Origin: Brachypterus glaber
Taxonomy: Eukaryota > Arthropoda > Insecta > Coleoptera > Kateretidae
DNA length: 64,000 bases
Reading direction: 5' to 3'
Assembly: GCA_958510825.1 (NCBI GenBank)
Contig: OY294049.1
Span: 6,944,001 to 7,008,000 of the forward strand
The notes under the pieces were generated by a model. That model saw only the letters and a program-made list of their open reading frames with translations. It had not been told where the DNA came from and ran no database searches. The translations under genes were made by a program, and so were the position numbers. Below are positions 3,388 through 61,006 of the stretch, piece by piece. Position 1 is the first letter of the stretch, and every line of letters begins with the position of its first letter.

Positions 3388-4911
3388 TTTCAAAAAAATT
3401 ATTATACAGTTGCAAATTAAACCAGGCTATAAAAAAGATTCTAAACCATTTGTTTTAAATTAAAATTTTTAAATTAGATATTTTTACTGATCAAGTATGC
3501 TAATATCGTGTTCTATTATGCATAATCTAAGGTAATGAATATTTAATCTGGAAATTTATTTTTCATGAAAATTCAAGCTGTGTTCTGTTTCCACTATAAT
3601 CAAAGCATCTTTCTTGTCGAATTAACTCACAACCGCCAATTATATGTCAAGTTATTTATTCTACAACAAGCAAATAGCCATCTATGTGGCATCACAATTT
3701 TAGAATTTCTTGATACAGTTAATCTACACCTTCAAGTTTAAGTACCGTCAAACTTAAGTTTATGTTTTACTGATGCTTAGGAAAAAAAATAATATTTAAC
3801 TATTTATTTATTTTTAAGTTAAAGAGGACAGGCAACTTGGTATACATTTTAAAGTAATTTAGGAGTCATTATTTGAAAAATTCGGCCATTACAGCTCGCT
3901 ATAATTCTTTTCTTATTGTCTGAATGTTTATAAATAAATAAATAACAATGCTAAACGGCTTTGTACTTCTAACGCTAATTATAAAGAAGTATAATCCCAG
4001 ATATATAAAGCAAAAACATTAAGGAGCTAAAGACCTTGGTTGTTAAATAAATCATGTTTTTTCCTTGTAGATAGGCCTAAATTCTTTTGGCCATTAGCCC
4101 CTTCAAGAATAGTCACGCCCAGCTTTTTTGCCGGTTCTTTTTCTTTACAAAATATGTTTCAATACCAAAATAAAATATTTCTGCGTTCATTTATCAAATT
4201 TAGAACGGTTTTATTAGTTGTTTTCGATAGATACTTTTTTTGTAAGGAGATAAATTTAGAAATATGATTTCTATAATAAAAAAAGTGTAGCGAACATTTA
4301 CCCTGCAGGGTTTTTTTAACGTGCAGTTTGACAAAAAATATGCAGTGGGAAATTTAGATTTGTGCAGTATAAAACATTATATGTATCCTTGTATGGATAT
4401 TTGTAGGTATAGTAAGATTTACCACAATGTACACAGTTGGACATTTGTTTACGGAATTTTTCATATACATTTTAATGTGGTATAGCTTGAAAAACCGACT
4501 GGAGCGGAAGGGGATAATATTTAAAAAATGAAAAAAATTATATTTGTTCAAAAATGAAGTGACCTATTATTGACTAATTTTTGCAATTAAAAAAATATGT
4601 TATTTTAAGGAATAGGGAAAAATAAATACGATTTTTTTTTCAGCTATACCTAAAGTAAAATCTACTGTAGACTTTTATGTCGTAGTTGTTTTTATAAAAA
4701 ATCTATAAGTAATTTCACTATTTTTTTTAAATATACCTTTTTTTTAAGGTGACGTCGCTTTTAGCCGGACCCCCCTCCCCCCTTCAACACTTTTCATCAC
4801 CTTTTGACCAACCACCCCCACCCCCTATGAAGGTAACGTCATTCTTGAATAGCCCCTTATTAAAACAAATTAGGAGCACGAGATCAAGTAATTATATTTT
4901 GGGAAGTATAT
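3388..4911. other. AT-rich stretch, no gene seen
   Basis: Reading frames here are short and of biased composition. Poly-A/T runs and a C-rich tract (4765-4830) are present. No domain or repeat family could be assigned. Confidence 0.45.
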
Positions 4912-5200
4912 GGGAGGATTGGTGTAGTGGTCTACCGCGTCTGTACATGACAAGTCTACTAGCCAATAGCGTGAGTTCGATTCTCACTGGCGCCGATTTG
5001 TCTTTTTCAGTTAATTAATAATTGAAATTTGGCGAAGGTGTAAGTGAAGCGGACACTCCCTATAAAAACTGGTTCGAAAGTCAGTATAAGCCGGTGGTTC
5101 CCTCTACTACTAGCCCACACAAGTCCTGGACTTAGGGCATGCTTAATTAAGTAGAATAGTAGGAGATTAAACAAACATGTAATGTGTAATATAATGTAAT
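4912..5200 (+). mobile_element. tRNA-derived SINE, copy 1
   Basis: The head is tRNA-like: GGGAGGATTGGTGTAGTGG corresponds to an A box and GAGTTCGATTCTC to a B box, the pol III internal promoter elements. A conserved body follows (TTTTTCAGTTAATTAATAATTG, GGTTCGAAAGTCAGTATAAG, CCACACAAGTCCTGGACTTA), and the tail is short and ATGT-rich. Two further copies occur at 50614-50867 (minus) and 60736-61006 (plus), colinear over the full length. The partner LINE is not evident. Confidence 0.85.
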
Positions 5201-35337: not shown

Positions 35338-36507
35338 TATACACGGTGTATTTGAAATAGGGTCGGAAATTTTAATTGATGATTCTACATCATAAAATAT
35401 GACAAAAAGTTCCTATAAACATATGTCTAAAAATGCGTCATAAGGGAGCTACGCCCCTATGAAAGTGGCTTAAAAAATCGGTTTTTATTTAATAACTCAG
35501 GAACCCTTTTAGATATATCAACGAGGTTTTGCACGTCAACTAATCCTACCAAGGCCCGTTTTTATGTGTTATTTTCATGTACTTATTTCAACCAGGGGTG
35601 TGCGAAACGGGGAGGGCTTATCAGTTTTTTGTCCCAAACTTTTTTCTGTGTAACTTTTTTGCAATTTTATTTTTGAAATATGATTCCTCAGGTCAAAATA
35701 CATAAAAAAGGTACTCTTGTTGTAATACTGTAGGATTAACCGTTTTCGAGAAAAATTCATTTGAAGGTGAAATTCCACGGTTCGAGAACGAAAAATTAAA
35801 TACTAATATGTTGAAAACCAAAATTTTAATGATGCAATTCTACATCAAAAACTAAGAAAAAAAGTTTCCATACATGTAGGTCGAAAAAACGATTTTAAAG
35901 CTACCATAGCGCTTTAAAAATGGTGCATATTTAGGAGACCATAGCTCCATTAGGATTGATTTTTGGAAGTACCTGTATATGAGGTTTTTTTCTTAGTTTT
36001 TAATGTACATTCGCCCTGTATCATTAAAATTTTGGTTTTCAACATTTTAGTATTTAATTTTTCGTCCTCGAACCGTAGAATTTCACCTTCAAATGAAGTT
36101 TTCTCGAAAACGGTTAATCCTACAGTATTACAACAAGAGTACCTTTTTTATGTATTTTGACCTGAGGAATCATATTTTAAAAATAAAAAAGTTACACAGA
36201 AAAAAGTTTGGGACAAAAAACTGATAAGCCCTCCCCGTTTCGCACACCCCTGGTTGAAATAAGTACATGAAAATAAAACATAAAAACGGGCCTTGGTAGG
36301 ATTATTTGACGTGCAAAATCTCGTTGATATATCTCAAAGGGTTCCTGAGTTATTAAATAAAAACCGATTTTTTTAGCCACTTTCAAAGGGGCGTAGCTCC
36401 CTTATGACGCATTTTTAGACATATGTTTATAGGAACTTTTTGTCATATTTTATGATGTAGAATCATCAGTTAAAATTTTCGACCCTATTTCAAATACACC
36501 GTGTATA
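35338..36507. mobile_element. 1.17-kb foldback element, copy 1
   Basis: Arms of about 490 bp (35338-35834 and 36017-36507) are nearly perfect inverted copies, beginning TATACACGGTGTATTTGAAA. They surround a middle of about 180 bp. TA could be the target duplication. The element has diverged copies at 26141-27270 and, as a half, at 44582-44960. Frames on both strands are products of the palindrome. Confidence 0.85.
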
Positions 36508-41006: not shown

Positions 41007-42190
41007 AGTTAATGACCCTTATGATAAATGAATAAAAATCTATAGGTACAATTCTTCTTATGGCGTTTTTCGGTTCACTGTAAGACTTTAATAAACTATT
41101 TTAATTTGATATCCAGAAAATATTTTCTACTACCTAAAGTATAAACACAACAAATCTAATAGAAAAATAACACTTTCTAAGTTAACCAAAATATTTAATA
41201 TAGTAATACTCAGTTTTCTCTGTAGCGAGTAATTTTCCACGGGAAATTGAAACACGTTGTAATTTTCCTTTTTCCTGCTTACAGTAAATGCACACGACAC
41301 AATTTTACTAACAGGTGTCACATTAACTTTTCAAACCGTTGACATTCTAATTTCACCAGGACAATTATTTAAATAGTTTTCATGACAATTTAATCAAAAA
41401 TGCATTTAAAATTTAATATTTCTAAAATTGTTTTTATCAGAGCTCTACTCACGAAAAATATGTGTGTTCAAACCAACATTACTGTTATATAAATGGTTAA
41501 TTAACCATATGGTATAGTAAATCCAACATTTAATTTGATTTAACAATACTGTATATGTTTAATGTAATTTAATAACACCATGGTTTGGACTTTTTAAATT
41601 GACCATAGCATGTATTTATATATTCGCAACCAAGCCATTGAAAATGTTTAAAAAAAGATTATTTTTATAATTTCTATGGTAGAAAGACCCCTTAAATTAA
41701 ACATTATATGGTTAAATAATTTTATAAAAATAAAGGTCTAATAAAACAAATTCCGTTGCATTTAAAATAATCGTACATTTTGTAAAAACATATTTTATTT
41801 TATTTAAATACTTTTAAGGTTAAGATGCTTAACGCTAACAAGATTCAAATAAAACTTCTTGAACATTTTCATTATAGTAATTCTACTATCAATTAAGTAA
41901 GTTTTCTTCATTAGAAGTACACAAAAGATTTAGCAAACTTTCATCTGCCTAATTATCTTTACAATTAAATAACCTAAAAGTTAAGGAATTTATGTTAATA
42001 GTCACTTAGCTTAGTCCTGTATATTTTCATTTTAAATGGGTCGTCTGATTTTTTGCTTTAAACGATAACAACTTCTAATTTACAAGTTGTGAAAATTTGT
42101 CTCCTAATTACAAATTTCAGGTCTTGTTAGAGCACTAAAAAGGGAAAGGACAGAAATTTTTAATTTTAAACAAAATTATAAAAATATTAA
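41007..42190. other. AT-rich stretch, no gene seen
   Basis: No feature recognised. Confidence 0.4.
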
Positions 42191-42236
42191 TTTATTATTC
42201 CATCAATCTATTTTCTAATCATCGTACAGAGTGATA

Positions 42237-42281
42237 TTGGTAGACTGACAGTTTCGGGCTGCTGGCCCTCTTCAGTACCAA
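42237..42281 (-). ncRNA. Hammerhead ribozyme, minus strand
   Basis: This is the exact reverse complement of 42464-42508. Read on the minus strand it has the same six-pair stem I, CUGAAGA box, GGGC/GCCC stem II, GAAA box and C cleavage site. It would be active only in transcripts of the minus strand. A transcript spanning both arms would instead pair one arm with the other. Confidence 0.85.
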
Positions 42282-42463
42282 GAGTCACAAGACACACAAG
42301 TCTTCAACTTGCTACCATTCAAAGTCTCCAGATAAGGAGAGGTATGAGTAGTTGTCTACATCTAGAAATAGATGGCGCACAAGTCTACATCAATCTAATG
42401 GCTATATTCCTTTTGCGAGTAAAGTCTAAAAACGTTTTCTTAATCAGCGTGCAGAGTTGACTC

Positions 42464-42508
42464 TTGGTACTGAAGAGGGCCAGCAGCCCGAAACTGTCAG
42501 TCTACCAA
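42464..42508 (+). ncRNA. Hammerhead ribozyme, plus strand
   Basis: All consensus parts are present. Stem I is UUGGUA (42464-42469) with UACCAA (42503-42508). The core CUGAAGA (42470-42476) fits CUGANGA. Stem II is GGGC/GCCC with loop CAGCA (42477-42489). GAA (42490-42492) is followed by stem III, ACU/AGU, around a three-base loop (42493-42501). The cleavage position is after C42502 (U16.1, C17). Stem I is open-ended, so this is type I. The short stem III suggests weak monomer activity and better action as a dimer, as reported for hammerheads of Penelope-like elements. Confidence 0.9.
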
Positions 42509-42554
42509 TATCACTCTGTACGATGATTAGAAAATAGATTGATGGAATAATAAA

Positions 42555-42737
42555 CTAAAAAGGGGAGTGTGAGGCTCTGGGCAGGCTCAGACAAGACATC
42601 TTCGGAGTGGTAACACTAGCGAAGGAAGAGTTGAGCCTCCTACTACCACTACTACTAGGGTAGATGGGTAGTTTGAGTGTCTTGGCAGTAAACTACCTAC
42701 ATACCCTAACAAACCTGCCTATCCAGTGCTAGTAAAG
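42555..42737. other. Spacer between the ribozyme element and the Transib-like element
   Basis: GC-richer than its surroundings, with CCTACTACCACTACTACTAG and GAGGCTCTGGGCAGGCTCAG. It may be part of the ribozyme-bearing retroelement, but no family is assigned. Confidence 0.35.
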
Positions 42738-43380
42738 CACAGTGGGCCCAGGACCCGTTCCTAGCCGGACAAAATTATCGGACAAAAAAATTATATTTAT
42801 GAAATATTTTGATTTATCTGTATTTTAGACATTTCAGTGCGCCATAAAGCACTATTTGTTTATTATAATATTACTATTAAGTAATTTAAACTTTGCTGCA
42901 AATGATATTTTATTTTCGAGGTATGTCATAAAAATGTAATTTATGTCATAAAAATTACATTTTGTTAAAATTTTAAGGTATTTAAAAAGAAAATTTCAAG
43001 CACTTTACGTCTGTATATGATAAAATAGGGACACACTGGGACCAGTATACAAAAAATTGCATGAAAGTAAGCGATAAAATAACACTTTCATGGAATCTTT
43101 GAATTTAAATTTAATAAAAATATGTTTTGTTTATTCAAGTTAATTATTATGTAAATGCATTACGATTTCAATAGTAAATTCGTATTTAACACAATAAAGA
43201 ATTATTTTAACGAATTAAAAAAAAAACTTCACCTCTGAAAAAAATCAAAGTTCCGCCAATGACATTATAAAGCTCAGTACCACTTTAAAATGACATTGAA
43301 GTAAATAGATTGATCATAATTTATTAAAAACATCACAACATATTTTTGTCCAGCTAGAAACAGGTCCTAGGCCCACTGTG
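42738..43380. mobile_element. Transib-like non-autonomous element with CACAGTG ends
   Basis: The left end CACAGTGGGCCCAGGACC and the right complement ...GGTCCTAGGCCCACTGTG form a TIR of about 35-40 bp. TAAAG flanks both ends (42733-42737 and 43381-43385), a 5-bp target duplication. CACAGTG termini with a 5-bp duplication fit the Transib superfamily, whose ends resemble the RAG recombination heptamer. The 643-bp interior is AT-rich with no transposase. Transib targets are often GC-rich, so the AT-rich duplication is atypical. Confidence 0.7.
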
Positions 43381-48267: not shown

Positions 48268-50613
48268 TCTTTACTTTCTCATCAAATATTGTAATAGAAG
48301 AAAAAATCAAATCCTTCAAAAATGACACTGACATTTCTAGCATTGCTCTTGAGCGATCTAAAGAGCGTTCGGGTTGGACAATCTTTTGACTCTTTTTACT
48401 CCACTGATGACTTCATGTCAACTGTCATTGAACTACATTTGATGATAATTGACATTATGTTACCAATGGGACAAAAAGATCGTTAAACCCGAACGCCTCT
48501 ATAATAAAAGGGCAGTTAAATTATTAAGACATATACTCGAAGAAAAAGTAGAGTATGGAACATGTTTGGAATGCATTTTCTGTACTTGTGGAACCGTCAT
48601 GATGCGCCTGGGATTTGTGGGTCAAAATTTCCAATTGTGTAGATTATTCTAAACTTGTTACAGAATATACGTGATTCTAAATACTTTAACTTTTGTAGGG
48701 CTTATGATATCCAAATGAAATTAAAAAAAAACTTAAATAACATAACCCAAATAATTTTTTAGTATATATTTGATATGCTTAGAGGGCATAATGGAGACAG
48801 GGTGCAGGGGGAGGTCATTTTTTTAAGGTATCGTGTGATACCTTATTTTAAAGGTTATAAAATTTTCGACCATATAATTTTTAATTTTTTATACATTTTT
48901 TTAAGGTTTTTATTTTTCAATTTTTTTTTTGCTAAAAAATGCGATGTTTTAAGATTATTTTGTAAAATTTTATTTATATCATTCAAAACTAGTTTAAAAG
49001 TATTTGTATCATTAAATAAACCATTTTTCAAAAATTGATTTTTTTAAAGAAATTTTGACAAAACTCCCATTTTTAAACCTGTTTTAAACCCTCGTTTAAA
49101 CCCCCAAAAATTGCTTCGGAAAATTAAAAAAAATATGTGGGCAAATAGAGAATGTTATAAGCTTTAAGATGAAGTATCACACTGCCTCCCTTTCCATTTA
49201 AAAATTTTTCCCTCCTTGCCCCCCTGTTTCCTTTGTGCCTCCTAAGCAAACCAAATTTATACCAAAAAATAATTTTCTTATGTTATTTATGTGTTCCAAA
49301 TTTTAAGGGATCATTCTGGTTTATATGCTCCAAAAAAAGGGCTATTTTTGTTAATTTTTTAAGAATGTATTATCATAGATATTGATATAAAATTTATTGA
49401 GCTTAATAAATCCACTCTCGAAATACATAAAAAAAATATTTTATACTTTTTATACACAAAAATAACAGGCAAACGTAACTCCTTGAAAAGTAAATATGTA
49501 GCTGGCGGCTCATCTAAATCGAAAAAATCAAAAATATTTAGATTCAGTATGACTGTGGCTCTCGCGTATTCTATGGATATTATTAAATTATATTTATTGA
49601 TAAATTTAAAGAAAAAACATTTAAATACGGTTATAGAATGCGCTGAAGCTATTCATGTGCCTGAATTAGAATGCAGTGACTCATACCTAAAACGTATTAT
49701 GCTGCTTTCATATAAGGGATTCCCCTCAGACGGAGTTACGCGAACCACACCCGAACTAGTATGATACTAGCTTTTTGCACACTTTCGCAAATGAGTCACT
49801 GCAGTATAATTCAGACACCGATGTTATCTACACATTGTTTAGAATATGTGGTTAAAATTTCATAAGGATCGGTCCAGTGGTTCCGGAGAAATCACCACCG
49901 CAGACTGAAAAAACGTTGTTTTGAGAAAATAAAGTGTTTTTTTTAATGAAAAATTATGAAAAAGTCTACATATATATATATATTTGAGAAAAACGCGTTT
50001 AAAGTTTTTTTTAATGAAATTTTATGAAAAACTCTAAATATAAAAAACGATTTTTTGAAAATTATAAACCAGTTTATATCTTAAGCCGTCCAAAAGTTAA
50101 AGGGGGGAACGTACTTTTTCAAGCTCTGTATACTATTCTCTGTGTGTATCAGTACTTTTTATTCCATATTATCACTAATAATAGCTTAAGAATTCATCCT
50201 GCGTATCACTAATTTATTTAAAAATAGGCTTCGAATGTATACCATCTGAATGTTAAAAAGTGTGGTTGAAACTTTGATGTCTGATATATTATTTTTGATC
50301 TAAAGGACTAAAAAATAGTCACGAATACATTTTCCATCATTTTTCATAGTATACACTTCGCCTTTACTGAAAGTATTAAAATTTTCTGACCATTTAATAT
50401 AACATTGCATATTTAATAATATGCAATTTATATTGTACAAGGTGATATGTGTAACAAAGTCTAGTGTCTTTTTTCTCCGGACAGGTATTTAACACCCCTT
50501 GGCTTTTTGTGGGTTATACGTTTTGTTTAAGTGTTAATTTTCAGAATGTCATTTATCTCACCATGAAATACGCGTTTTTTCTTCCCTTCTAATGTTTAGA
50601 AAAAAGGGGAATT
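48268..50613. other. AT-rich stretch, no confident gene
   Basis: An inverted pair around GAGCGTTCGGGTTGGACAAT and CCCGAACGCCTC lies at 48364-48497. A frame at 49462-49764 without ATG encodes about 100 residues, ending GFPSDGVTRTTPELV. It is followed by AAGGATCGGTCCAGTGGTTC, a motif typical of insect transposon 3' ends. It is probably mobile-element debris and is not called as a gene. Confidence 0.4.
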
Positions 50614-50867
50614 ATATGTTTGTTTAACCTCGTACTATTCTACTTAATTAAGCATCCCCTAAGTCCAGGACTTGTGTGGGATAGTAGTAGAGGGAACCAC
50701 CGGCTTATACTGACTTTCGAACCAGTTTATAGTATCCGTTTCACTTATCGCCTTCGCCAAATTTCAATTAATAAATAACTGAAAAAGCCAAATTAGCGGC
50801 AGTGAGAATCGAACTCACGCTAGTAGGCTTGCTATCTACACTCGCTAGCCACTACGCTATGCCTCCC
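50614..50867 (-). mobile_element. tRNA-derived SINE, copy 2
   Basis: Reverse orientation. The head at the right has GGGAGGCATAGCGTAGTGG (A box) and GTGAGTTCGATTCTCACTG (B box). The tail at the left is ACAAACATATAA. The body is colinear with copies 1 and 3. Confidence 0.85.
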
Positions 50868-51920
50868 ATAAATAAAATAAATACTCATTAATCCTCTGCC
50901 ACAGACACCTTATTTATGGAACATTACTACAGACATGGCGTAAAAATTACGCCTCCCTTTAAACAATTTAAAAGTACAAACCAAAATTTTTAAAAACGTG
51001 TCCTTTATAGCTTTAATAATTTAATTAAAAATGCAATAGAACATAATATTTTGTCCAATACATCAATATAAAGACCTACTAGAGGGTTAAATAATATATT
51101 AAGGTCTACTGGGTGAACACGGAAAGAATGGGAATGGATAAATCAACAAAATGCATCAAATAATAAAAAAATTGTTGTTTTTGACCAATCGCGTAACAGA
51201 CAATAAAAATAAACATAAAAGAATATTTGATTTTACAATCATTTTTGTTGATGCCCAATTATAGTAGTTTAGTAGTTGATTTTGCTTATAATGAGGGCCA
51301 CTAGCTTTAACTACATATTTTTGTTTTCAGTGAAAAATCGATTGACTTTAACTAACAAGCAATTATAGTAACAACTAAATAAAAGCGTAAAGGGAAATTT
51401 AAAATTTTAAAGTAAACTGATGTAAAACAATTTTGCTCTAGTGTTACGGAGAGTATTAAAAAAAAAAACGAGAATATCGACAAAAATCGCAAAATTGGTC
51501 AGCGTAGCGTTAATATAGATGGATAAATCCACCAGATAAGGGCCTTATTTGCCAGTTAACGGGCATAAGGAATTTTATAAATTCGGCTCAAAAACAATGT
51601 TAAAAATAGGCCGTTTTTGGCACCGTTTCTGTTACTTTTGAGAACGGAGTTAGCGGAGTTCAGCGTGCCCAAATCTATAAAAAAATATATTTGGCATCGT
51701 TTTCTCAGAATCGACCTAATTTTACCTTTTTACGAAAAAAAAGTCTTTCGCACCGTTTCTGTAACTTTAAAGGCCGGCATCTTATTCAAAATGTCCAAAT
51801 CTATAGGAATTGATTTTTAACATTGTTCTTTGCGTATTAAATTTAGGTAATAATTCAGAGCAATAAAAAGTTTTGGAGTTCTTTATTATTATAATGCCCG
51901 ACTAATATCCCTTCTCTCAA
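50868..51920. other. AT-rich stretch, no gene seen
   Basis: No feature recognised. Confidence 0.4.
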
Positions 51921-57239: not shown

Positions 57240-60158
57240 GTAATAATTGTGGAGGATATAGCGGATGCTGTAAAGGTGGTAGTTAGTGATAGATTATTAA
57301 ATGTTTTACATATTAACATTAGATCAATAAATCATAATTTTGATCAATTAATAGCGTACCTAAATATTATACCAATCAAAAATATTGATGTAATAATTTT
57401 ATCGGAGACATGGGGAGTGAATGATGTAAGTAATTTTAATATTCTTAATTTTAATATTTTTTATAGTAACTCTAGGTTCAATCAAAACGACGGATGTATT
57501 GTTTATATACGAGAATCAATTAATGCTAATGTCGAAATAGTAAAAACAAGACAAATGAATTTTCTGAGATGTGTTTTTGAAATAAATAATTATACTTATG
57601 GAATAACATCCTGCTATAGACCTCATGGTTCTAATGTTACAATTTTCAACGCGGATTTAGATAATTTTTACCAGAAAATAGAAAAAAGTGACATTGAAAT
57701 CTTTTCAGGTGATATAAACATCAATTTGCTAGATAGAAACAATAGCGACGTCAATGATTATTTAGACATATTTTATCAACATCAAATGTTTTCTTATGTA
57801 ACTGTGCCAACAAGAAATCAAAGATCTCTAATAGATCATTTCTTATTAGGATTAAAAAACAGTAATATACGCAAAAAAACTATTATTTCTTCCTATTTAT
57901 TCCAAACGGGTCTAACTGATCACGATTTTATATTTTTAAGAATAGGTGACTTAACATTAAAAAATAATTTAGTAAATAATTGCAATAATAAAATTAAGGA
58001 ATTTAATAAAATTGATTATGTAGCTTTAAAAGATAAGTTAAAAAACGAGGATTGGTTCAGTACACTCCAAGACACAAATGTTGAAAATTGTTACAATGAA
58101 TTTTTAAGTAAGATACTAAATTATATCAACATTTGTAAAAAAACTGTTAAAATTTCAAACAATAAAAACACAAAAATAAAACCATGGGTAACCATCGGAC
58201 TTGTTAACGCAATTAGACATAGAGATCAATTAAAAAAACAGTTAACTAAAACTTATACTGAAAACCTAAATGAACAGTACAAAGCCTATAGAAACAAATT
58301 AAACAAACTACTAAAAATAACAAAAAGTGAATATTATGAGAACGAATTAAATAGTGCAAAAAATAACATTAAAAAAACTTGGAAGGTTATTAATGAGGCC
58401 TCTAATACTAATAAGAAAAGAAAAACTGAAAATTATGACATAACTAACACAGGAGGTAGTAAAATAGTTGGGGATAAGAATAAAGCTAACCATTTTATTA
58501 GTTTTTTTGCTAATGTTGGTGAGAATATGGTAAAGAACATTGACAGCGTTAATGTGCAAACAGAAAATGAACATTCCAGTTTAAATTCACTATTTCTTAG
58601 ACCTATCTCGGAAAATGATTTGATTAAACATATCTCAAATTTAAACAATAAATCGGCTCCTGGTCCTGATGGGATATCAGCTAATACTATTATAACTATT
58701 CAGAAATACATAATACCACCTAGGATATACATTTTTAATCTTATTTTAGAGAAAGGTGTGATTCCCAAGGCAATGAAGGAATCTGTAATTACTCCAGTGT
58801 TTAAATCTGGTACAAAAAATCTAGCAACCAACTATCGTCCAATCTCTGTAATAAGTATATTAGCTAAAATTTTTGAACAATGCTTAAAAAGTCGTCTCAT
58901 GGATTTTCTAGAAAATAACAACCTACTCAGTAAGAAACAATTTGGCTTTAGGAAGGGAATTAGCACGGAAAATGCTGTTTTAGATTTTTACAAAGTTATT
59001 ATCAATAACTTAAATACTAAAAAAAAATGCTTATCTGTTTTCTTAGATCTAGCTAAGGCTTTTGACACGGTGGACCACAAAATACTTTTGAGAAGACTAC
59101 AAAAAATTGGCATAAGAGGTTTAGCTTTATCAATTTTTAAAAGTTATTTAGTTGAACGGGTCCAACGTGTCAAAATAAACGGTTCTTTAAGCGATCCACT
59201 TTTTGTTATCAGGGGCGTGCCTCAGGGAACAGTTATGGGCCCAATTCTATTTTTAATTTATATAAATAGCATTTATAATATAATTAACTTTCCCGGTGAA
59301 ATCTTTTCCTACGCAGATGATACAGCCTTGGTATTTCTAGGAGATTCATGGGATATTGTCTACAAAAAAGCAGAACACGGACTTACGCTGATAAAACTCT
59401 GGCTAGATACAAGCCTCCTCAGTCTTAATGTTGACAAAACTAAATTCTTAACTTTTTCTGCGACTTCCACTGATCAACCTGTATGTGACTTTTTAAAAAT
59501 TCATACATTTAATTGTAACAGAGATCAATGTAACTGCTCCGATGTTAAACGTACAACTTATATTAAATACCTTGGAGTCATTGTGGATCAACACTTGAAA
59601 TGGAATGAACATATTAATTATTTAAACACTAGACTGAGGAGGCTCATTTACAAGTTTTATCAGCTTCGAGATATACTTTCTAATAAACTTATACTTATTG
59701 TGTACAGAGCTTTGGTCGAATCGTTGCTTAGATATTGCATTTGTATCTGGGATGGATTACTGGATAATACCCTTCATGGCTTGGCAGTTACCCAAAATAC
59801 GTTATTAAAAATTATTCTTAATAAATCAAGAAGGTTTTCCACTGATATTTTATATAAAGAAAATAATATATTTACAATTAGACAACTTTATGTATATCAA
59901 ATTATACTGTGGACTCATAATAACAGAGAAAACTTGCCAGTAGTAGTTCATAATCAAAAAACAAGATCGATTAGTAATGATAGTATATCTGTACCCCGAT
60001 TTATTAAAGCTCACACTCAAAGGTCAATTCTTTTTTACGGACCAAAATTTTATAACCTAATTCCAAATGAAATTAGGTGTTTAAATAAAAATAGGTTTAA
60101 ACGAGAACTTAAAACGTTTGTAATAAATAATAATTCACTCATTCACTCCATGTTGTAG
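57240..60158 (+). CDS. Non-LTR retrotransposon pol: AP endonuclease plus reverse transcriptase
   Basis: About 970 codons, uninterrupted, ending at TAG 60156-60158. Numbering from the GTG at 57249, an AP-like endonuclease occupies about 15-230. It shows HIN (21-23), SETW with Glu53, GDININ (154-159), IDH (195-197) and TDH (223-225), all expected catalytic positions. The reverse transcriptase occupies about 440-740. It shows APGPDG (470-475), LDLAKAFDTVDH with Asp600 and Asp606, GVPQG (656-660) and the catalytic YADD (688-691). A CNRDQCNCSD stretch lies after it. The protein nicks target DNA and copies its own RNA at the nick. Motif style (HINIRS, SETWG, YADDTAL) points to the CR1/L2-like group. 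The clade call is tentative. There is no ATG between the upstream stop (57237-57239) and the endonuclease motifs. So the copy either lost its start, is 5'-truncated, or is translated by non-AUG initiation or from a splice. Confidence 0.9.
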   Translation, partial: VIIVEDIADAVKVVVSDRLLNVLHINIRSINHNFDQLIAYLNIIPIKNIDVIILSETWGVNDVSNFNILNFNIFYSNSRFNQNDGCIVYIRESINANVEIVKTRQMNFLRCVFEINNYTYGITSCYRPHGSNVTIFNADLDNFYQKIEKSDIEIFSGDININLLDRNNSDVNDYLDIFYQHQMFSYVTVPTRNQRSLIDHFLLGLKNSNIRKKTIISSYLFQTGLTDHDFIFLRIGDLTLKNNLVNNCNNKIKEFNKIDYVALKDKLKNEDWFSTLQDTNVENCYNEFLSKILNYINICKKTVKISNNKNTKIKPWVTIGLVNAIRHRDQLKKQLTKTYTENLNEQYKAYRNKLNKLLKITKSEYYENELNSAKNNIKKTWKVINEASNTNKKRKTENYDITNTGGSKIVGDKNKANHFISFFANVGENMVKNIDSVNVQTENEHSSLNSLFLRPISENDLIKHISNLNNKSAPGPDGISANTIITIQKYIIPPRIYIFNLILEKGVIPKAMKESVITPVFKSGTKNLATNYRPISVISILAKIFEQCLKSRLMDFLENNNLLSKKQFGFRKGISTENAVLDFYKVIINNLNTKKKCLSVFLDLAKAFDTVDHKILLRRLQKIGIRGLALSIFKSYLVERVQRVKINGSLSDPLFVIRGVPQGTVMGPILFLIYINSIYNIINFPGEIFSYADDTALVFLGDSWDIVYKKAEHGLTLIKLWLDTSLLSLNVDKTKFLTFSATSTDQPVCDFLKIHTFNCNRDQCNCSDVKRTTYIKYLGVIVDQHLKWNEHINYLNTRLRRLIYKFYQLRDILSNKLILIVYRALVESLLRYCICIWDGLLDNTLHGLAVTQNTLLKIILNKSRRFSTDILYKENNIFTIRQLYVYQIILWTHNNRENLPVVVHNQKTRSISNDSISVPRFIKAHTQRSILFYGPKFYNLIPNEIRCLNKNRFKRELKTFVINNNSLIHSML

Positions 60159-60443: not shown

Positions 60444-60735
60444 TAATACAATTTATATCATTTTGCGATGAAAAAAATATAAAAGTTGTTTTGACATGTT
60501 GTATTATTATAAATAGTTAAAAATTAATCTTCCGAATTACACACGATTCTTAGAATTATCGAAAAAATTCACAGTTTTAATTCAAATTTTCTTTCAAAGA
60601 AAATAATTACTCCAAGGGCATCGCCCTGCATGCCTCGGTAGTAATTAGTTCCAGACAGGAATTTTTCATGGAAACAGTGATTTTTTGCCGCATAATTCTC
60701 AGCCTCTTGTATATGATAAATTATCGAAAACATTT
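60444..60735. other. Short AT-rich spacer
   Basis: No feature recognised. Confidence 0.4.
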
Positions 60736-61006
60736 GGGAGGCATAGCGTAGTGGCTAGCGCGTATGCATAGCAAGTCTACTATCGTGAGTTCGATTCTCA
60801 CTGGCGCCGATTGGCCTTTTTCAGTTAATTAATAATTGAAATTTGTCGAAGGCGATAACGGACACTCCCTAGAAACTGGTTCGAAAGTCAGTATAAGCCG
60901 GTGGTTCCCTCTACTACTAGCCCACACAAGTCCTGGACTTAGGGGATGCTTAATTAAGTAGAATAGTACGAGGTTAAACAAACATGTATGTATGTATGTA
61001 TGTATT
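60736..61006 (+). mobile_element. tRNA-derived SINE, copy 3
   Basis: GGGAGGCATAGCGTAGTGGC head, GTGAGTTCGATTCTCACTGG B box, full body and a clean ATGT tandem tail (60984-61004). It is the cleanest copy and lies about 300 bp downstream of the non-LTR tail. The SINE tail differs from the AAATTG tail, so that element is unlikely to be its partner. Confidence 0.9.

Follow-up and report, generated by a model that had tools for sequence, protein, structure and literature searches.

Metazoan retrozymes are tandem repeats of 150–450 bp with one hammerhead in each unit and no protein-coding region, and they are expressed as linear and circular monomer RNA; their G+C content is below 50% and their target-site duplications are longer than 4 bp (PMC7229834). 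According to PMC7761336, their repeats carry no conserved motif that would betray a helper. Both reviews propose Penelope-like elements (PLEs) as retrozyme helpers on the grounds that retrozymes and PLEs are found together and have hammerheads in common; PMC7229834 ranks them a strong candidate, adding tandem copies to the argument, and the proposal returns in one sentence of PMC8969392. PLEs with an endonuclease have an integration pattern of their own. In rotifers the pseudo-LTRs (pLTRs) are inverted, one of them optionally bears a 31-bp tail, and duplications measure 8–10 bp (PMC3846280). In Anolis the tail is the stretch between two start sites of reverse transcription, the ribozyme cuts 26 bp into the frame and the stem-loop of the start follows at 111–118 bp (85–92 nt past the cut), and no difference in start site between the strands was seen in vitro (PMC11167929).

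The locus described here combines traits of both systems. It resembles the non-LTR retrozymes of coral, mussel and axolotl (PMC7229834, PMC7761336) in its type I hammerhead, in the small size of its tandem repeats, here 354 bp, in a low G+C content (0.36) and in duplications of more than 4 bp. It differs in that most well-preserved dispersed insertions are head-to-head and have a long 3′ end on one side and a short one on the other; we found no description of such ends in the available portions of either source, and the main text of PMC7229834 nowhere uses the word “inverted”. Head-to-head inverted copies, an optional tail at one end, target-site duplications and a hammerhead at a similar distance upstream of the start of reverse transcription are shared with the endonuclease-bearing PLEs of rotifers (PMC3846280) and Anolis (PMC11167929). 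The repeat differs from PLEs in carrying no reverse transcriptase (RT) or endonuclease, and its three-pair stem III differs from the palindromic ACGU found in the PLE hammerheads of the same genome. Judged by its sequence, then, the retrozyme shows a PLE insertion geometry without the protein.

Within the window, the whole 64-kb stretch of DNA that was analysed, an initial annotation had reported a complete type I hammerhead with a six-pair stem I, a GGGC/GCCC stem II and a stem III of three pairs closed by a three-base loop. Reading the 45 nt base by base and scanning with a descriptor bears this out in every part (Table 1): the conserved core of a type I hammerhead (CUGANGA, GAAA and U-H17 within three stems, open at stem I) is present at each position. 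A strict descriptor (stem I of at least six pairs, stem II of at least four, G10.1-C11.1 and C17) gave one match per strand in the window and none in 2000 first-order Markov sequences of equal length, of which 35 were matched by a permissive one (stems of 4/3/3). Covariance models count against it. No hammerhead family was called for the motif by Rfam at gathering score, an 801-nt stretch around it returned no hammerhead up to an E-value of 10, and the minus-strand copy had no Rfam hammerhead match; with an 86-nt stretch the sole family reported was RF03152 (RAGATH-1-hammerhead, 42464–42507, E 0.5), in which core, stem I and the GUC site align but the 17.3 bits scored fall short of the 56.3 bits required for gathering. 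Taken literally, this is the sub-threshold covariance score that the initial annotation had named as grounds for refutation. We nevertheless overrule it, because the ribozyme core pattern has 4,067 matches in the 648-Mb host genome (2075 and 1992 on the two strands) and the reversed pattern, run as a control on the same genome, has none, and because the family is mobile.

Table 1. Features of the retrozyme insertion and its hammerheads (positions within the window)
Feature	Position	Strand	Remarks
Left target-site duplication, ACTAAAAAGGG	42134..42144	.	
Whole element	42145..42553		two head-to-head pieces
Inverted partial retrozyme unit	42145..42287	-	long 3′ end on the outside
46-nt tail	42145..42190	-	at left end only; continues the unit sequence
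Second type I hammerhead	42237..42281	-	identical 45 nt; predicted cut after C at 42243
Junction of inverted and direct pieces	~42287/42290		
Direct partial retrozyme unit	42288..42553	+	short 3′ end on the outside
Stem I outer continuation, 5′ strand	42432..42460	+	pairs with ~42509–42537 beyond internal loop
Hammerhead 1	42464..42508	+	predicted cut after C17 at 42502
Parts of hammerhead 1, 5′ to 3′			UUGGUA (stem I), CUGAAGA, GGGC-CAGCA-GCCC (stem II), GAA, ACU-GUC-AGU (stem III), C17, UACCAA (stem I)
Stem I outer continuation, 3′ strand	42509..42537	+	
Right target-site duplication, ACTAAAAAGGG	42554..42564	.	

The right-hand ribozyme is one of a pair. Both hammerheads lie inside a perfect 97-bp inverted repeat (42191–42287 and 42458–42554) whose arms are 170 nt apart; outside the repeat the left side has 46 nt more than the right, the tail. 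The two head-to-head pieces are flanked by 11-bp target-site duplications of ACTAAAAAGGG, a string that the window contains no third time; when placements were drawn at random, 8 of 3000 had 11 or more letters in common at comparable spacing. The initial annotation, correct about the plus-strand hammerhead, had overlooked the minus-strand copy, the inverted repeat, the continuation of stem I and where the element ends. Its longest open frame, of 89 aa, has no Pfam match, and the element holds no frame with a telomerase-like RT and GIY-YIG endonuclease such as defines a PLE.

Other repeats lie in the window as well. At 42738–43380 lies a likely non-autonomous DNA transposon with 41-nt terminal inverted repeats that begin CACAGTGGGCC (88%) and with TAAAG on both flanks; the heptamer CACAGTGGGCC is, we presume, reminiscent of Transib elements. 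A repeat that starts with a tRNA-like head, probably a SINE, is present three times (4908–5181, 50613–50868 and 60735–60988), and ARAGORN and Rfam call two of these copies tRNAs. An open 972-aa frame with an RT domain at 57240–60158 belongs to a LINE, and its best named relative, at 54% identity, comes from a beetle, Brassicogethes aeneus; a large palindrome of ~1.17 kb at 35338–36507 matches its own reverse complement at 90%, with related pieces at 26.2–27.3 kb.

A DNA search of the genome with the element gave at least 255 matches, from the listed ones of which 38 loci were fetched; as best matches, they are biased towards young copies. At many of these loci a 354-bp unit, each time with a single hammerhead, is repeated in tandem, up to 14 times in one direction at locus L011. 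Among 100 core sites listed, 19 of the 25 same-strand neighbours within 1 kb are spaced by exactly 354 bp, and the opposite-strand neighbours comprise 14 head-to-head and no tail-to-tail pairs. The unit length falls within the 150–450 bp of known retrozymes, as its G+C content and duplications do within their limits, and the arrays with one ribozyme in each unit therefore fit a metazoan retrozyme and not a PLE itself. Of the two kinds of element that the initial annotation thought the locus might mark, the retrozyme thus stands and the PLE does not, and its placement of the motif within a repeat of an insect-like genome holds; its interpretation as a whole is partly supported. Searches of viral contigs and phage records returned no match, and those of prokaryote contigs two, neither of them a hammerhead by eye.

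The retrozyme family is young. Of the 118 hammerheads in the window and the fetched loci, 104 have one and the same sequence, and among 99 units of the 38 loci non-majority bases amount to 0.49% within the 45-nt ribozyme versus 0.58% elsewhere, a figure inflated by flank bases aligned at unit ends; ribozyme-specific conservation was not seen among these units. It is important to note that the identity of copies is by itself no proof of function, because a young repeat preserves even meaningless sequence. Within arrays, variants recur in a rhythm of two to three units in L011, while in L015 two variants take turns; this hints that dimer or trimer templates, or exchange at a later time, have a part in shaping the arrays.

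The ends of dispersed copies follow a pattern. When the outer 3′ ends are placed on the unit, they fall into two clusters ~46 nt apart, the long end 94–100 nt and the short end 46–54 nt past the ribozyme cut in 21 resolved insertions (the short-end position in two of the 21 not being assignable by exact match), and inner 5′ junctions differ between copies. These 21, with duplications of 11–15 bp (82% A+T), are the head-to-head insertions with one long and one short end among the 23 of 37 that have a duplication of at least 10 bp, a length reached by 6 of 3000 mismatched flanks; the exceptions are L039, with its second end elsewhere, and L043, without a second 3′ end. Irrespective of duplication, the long/short pair is present in 28 of 31 head-to-head insertions of the selected set (L023, the second element of L030 and L039 break the rule) and in nine of ten of an unselected set made of the first 20 core sites listed, where L054 is the exception, L060 contributes two of the ten, and all six loci with a duplication of at least 10 bp conform. 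These counts leave out L025, L026 and L047, where the element reaches the fetched edge, and L062, which is under the size filter; one-orientation elements (six selected, nine unselected) and the tail-to-tail remnant L064 have no bearing on the rule. Head-to-head order, a tail on one of two 3′ ends and a target-site duplication, the marks of Penelope-type integration, are thus found together in the retrozyme insertions. In a literature coverage that was incomplete we found no report of paired long and short retrozyme ends, and we claim no priority.

The PLEs of the same genome end in the same way. A search for GIY-YIG domains gave 31 matches among the 150 of 419 candidates that were scored; RT and GIY-YIG occur together in a 716-aa frame at L081 and likewise at L086, GIY-YIG with a sub-threshold RT at L082, and GIY-YIG at L085 and L087. 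The best named relative of the L081 frame among 120 listed of 400 proteins is from Coccinella septempunctata (37% identity), and by the best named matches of one LINE and one PLE protein the host appears beetle-like. Several PLE loci carry minimal hammerheads of their own (found with a loose pattern, stem II being inspected by eye), mostly with a CUGAAGA core and with the palindromic ACGU replacing stem III; no hammerhead was found by these scans at L081, the longest PLE frame. The A at the variable core position (N7), which the initial annotation had singled out, is indeed present at our locus and is common to most of these PLE hammerheads. One PLE hammerhead has 233 matches in the genome and its reversed control none, and among the places listed its neighbours within 3 kb, read by eye, form 16 head-to-head, no tail-to-tail and one tandem arrangement. 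Again, one long and one short end are paired in 15 of the 16; the lone exception, L096, ends short on either side, between matching flanks. A duplication of 12–19 bp adjoins both ends in 11 of the 16 (a simple repeat at L092), with long ends at +88 to +102 and short ends at +62 to +68 after the cut, and the other five (L094, L099, L101, L103 and L096), in which no clean duplication was found, were judged by eye. Mismatched PLE flank pairs share at least 13 bp in 6 of 400 cases and 12 bp in 96 of 400, and because the latter is so common the 12-bp duplication of L093 is weak by itself. The distance of the long end from the cut is therefore nearly equal in the two kinds of element (88–102 nt in PLEs versus 94–100 nt in the retrozyme), while a comparison of retrozyme and PLE ends showed no clear shared sequence. 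Compared with 21 loci around GIY-YIG matches, the 354-bp unit has a good match in L085 only, a two-orientation fragment at 245–353 that lies ~2.6 kb from the GIY-YIG frame and is apparently a separate insertion.

Folding predictions bear on which transcripts may be active. In a fold of 42440–42530 (z −6.0), a long helix prolongs stem I of the right-hand ribozyme on the far side of an internal loop, and a transcript spanning both arms is predicted to form a single long hairpin; because the ribozyme is buried in it, at the window copy probably only transcripts starting between the arms could form the hammerhead. The standard energy model, which leaves out the tertiary contacts of hammerheads, favours a rival hairpin over the hammerhead, by 6.4 kcal/mol for the 45-mer and by 6.3 kcal/mol for the unit. 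For a double hammerhead of two strands paired through the near-palindrome ACUG-U-CAGU the energy (−28.9 kcal/mol) hardly differs from that of two misfolded monomers (−29.2 kcal/mol), and by this modelling tandem units could form such a double hammerhead within one molecule, as the inverted window copy could not.

Several other readings of these data have to be weighed. One is that the 354-bp unit is the pLTR belonging to an autonomous PLE, with the window copy as a solo pLTR remnant. The head-to-head order, the tail and the hammerhead near the 3′ end speak for it, all of them being PLE pLTR features (PMC3846280, PMC11167929). The unit stands alone in arrays of up to 14, however; only the separate fragment at L085 matches it well among the 21 GIY-YIG loci, and the PLE hammerheads at those loci differ in stems II and III. 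This reading, with which the locus was at first explained and which was abandoned once the 354-bp arrays emerged, is in our estimate highly improbable. A retrozyme mobilised by a LINE fares little differently: LINEs are present, such as the 972-aa RT frame in the window, and PMC7229834 lists LINEs or PLEs as possible helpers. Yet the combination of head-to-head order, a tail at one end and duplications of 11–15 bp is the signature of this genome's PLEs (retrozyme and PLE insertions being those compared), which makes a LINE mover very unlikely.

The exact 354-bp spacing and the higher-order variant patterns would also suit a satellite DNA spread by unequal exchange, with the hammerhead as a passenger, but this is contradicted for the dispersed copies, which are inserted between target-site duplications and stop at two fixed 3′ ends; we give it very little credence, although exchange may lengthen arrays after insertion. 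The perfect 97-bp inverted repeat of the window copy is what a fold-back or MITE-type DNA element with terminal inverted repeats would show, were its two ends not unequal, one side being 46 nt longer; since unequal ends are the rule among copies and other copies hold arrays between their ends, such an element was ruled out and has scarcely any probability left. That the hammerhead arose by chance is suggested by its score under the Rfam gathering level and by the yield of the permissive descriptor in random windows. This too we rejected as exceedingly improbable, in view of the strict descriptor's failure in all 2000 of them, the core matches set against none for the reversed pattern, and the identity of most copies. 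An AC-rich stem-loop acting as the start of reverse transcription in the Anolis fashion was also considered and found unsupported, the retrozyme ends sitting in AT-rich sequence.

In light of these results, we propose that the window element is a short insertion of an animal retrozyme moved by the protein of a Penelope-like element through twin priming, an explanation that we regard as likely. Array transcripts would be cut by the hammerhead into 354-nt monomers, and these, ligated circles or multimers would serve as templates for the RT-plus-endonuclease protein of a PLE, which we infer to act in trans. This protein would nick both strands of an AT-rich target ~11–15 bp apart and prime from both nicks, with cDNA synthesis starting at either of two RNA sites, ~46–54 and 94–100 nt downstream of the cut; a typical insertion would use one start of each kind, one per target strand. 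Joining of the two cDNAs at a variable point would then yield head-to-head units, and synthesis that continues around a circular template or through successive units of a multimer would yield tandem ones. Some observations count against this retrozyme and PLE-helper model: the two sets of ends share no clear sequence, L081 has no detected hammerhead, Rfam scores stay below gathering, the rival hairpin is favoured by 6.3–6.4 kcal/mol, and the long/short rule is broken by 3 of 31 and 1 of 10 retrozyme and 1 of 16 PLE insertions. The variant rhythm of L011 and L015 belongs here as well, because it is not expected from one monomer circle alone.

The paired ends seen in both kinds of element within one genome provide positional evidence on what moves animal retrozymes. 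They also constrain Penelope insertion, because almost all head-to-head insertions examined used each of the two start sites a single time. More generally, we lean slightly towards the view that animal retrozymes ride the Penelope machine by way of circular or multimeric RNA, that this machine works by asymmetric twin priming with a near and a far start (~50–65 and ~97 nt after the cut) in nearly every insertion, and that the hammerhead may set or mark the start-site distance in the autonomous and the parasitic element alike. The pairing of one long and one short end thus offers a fingerprint to seek in other genomes.
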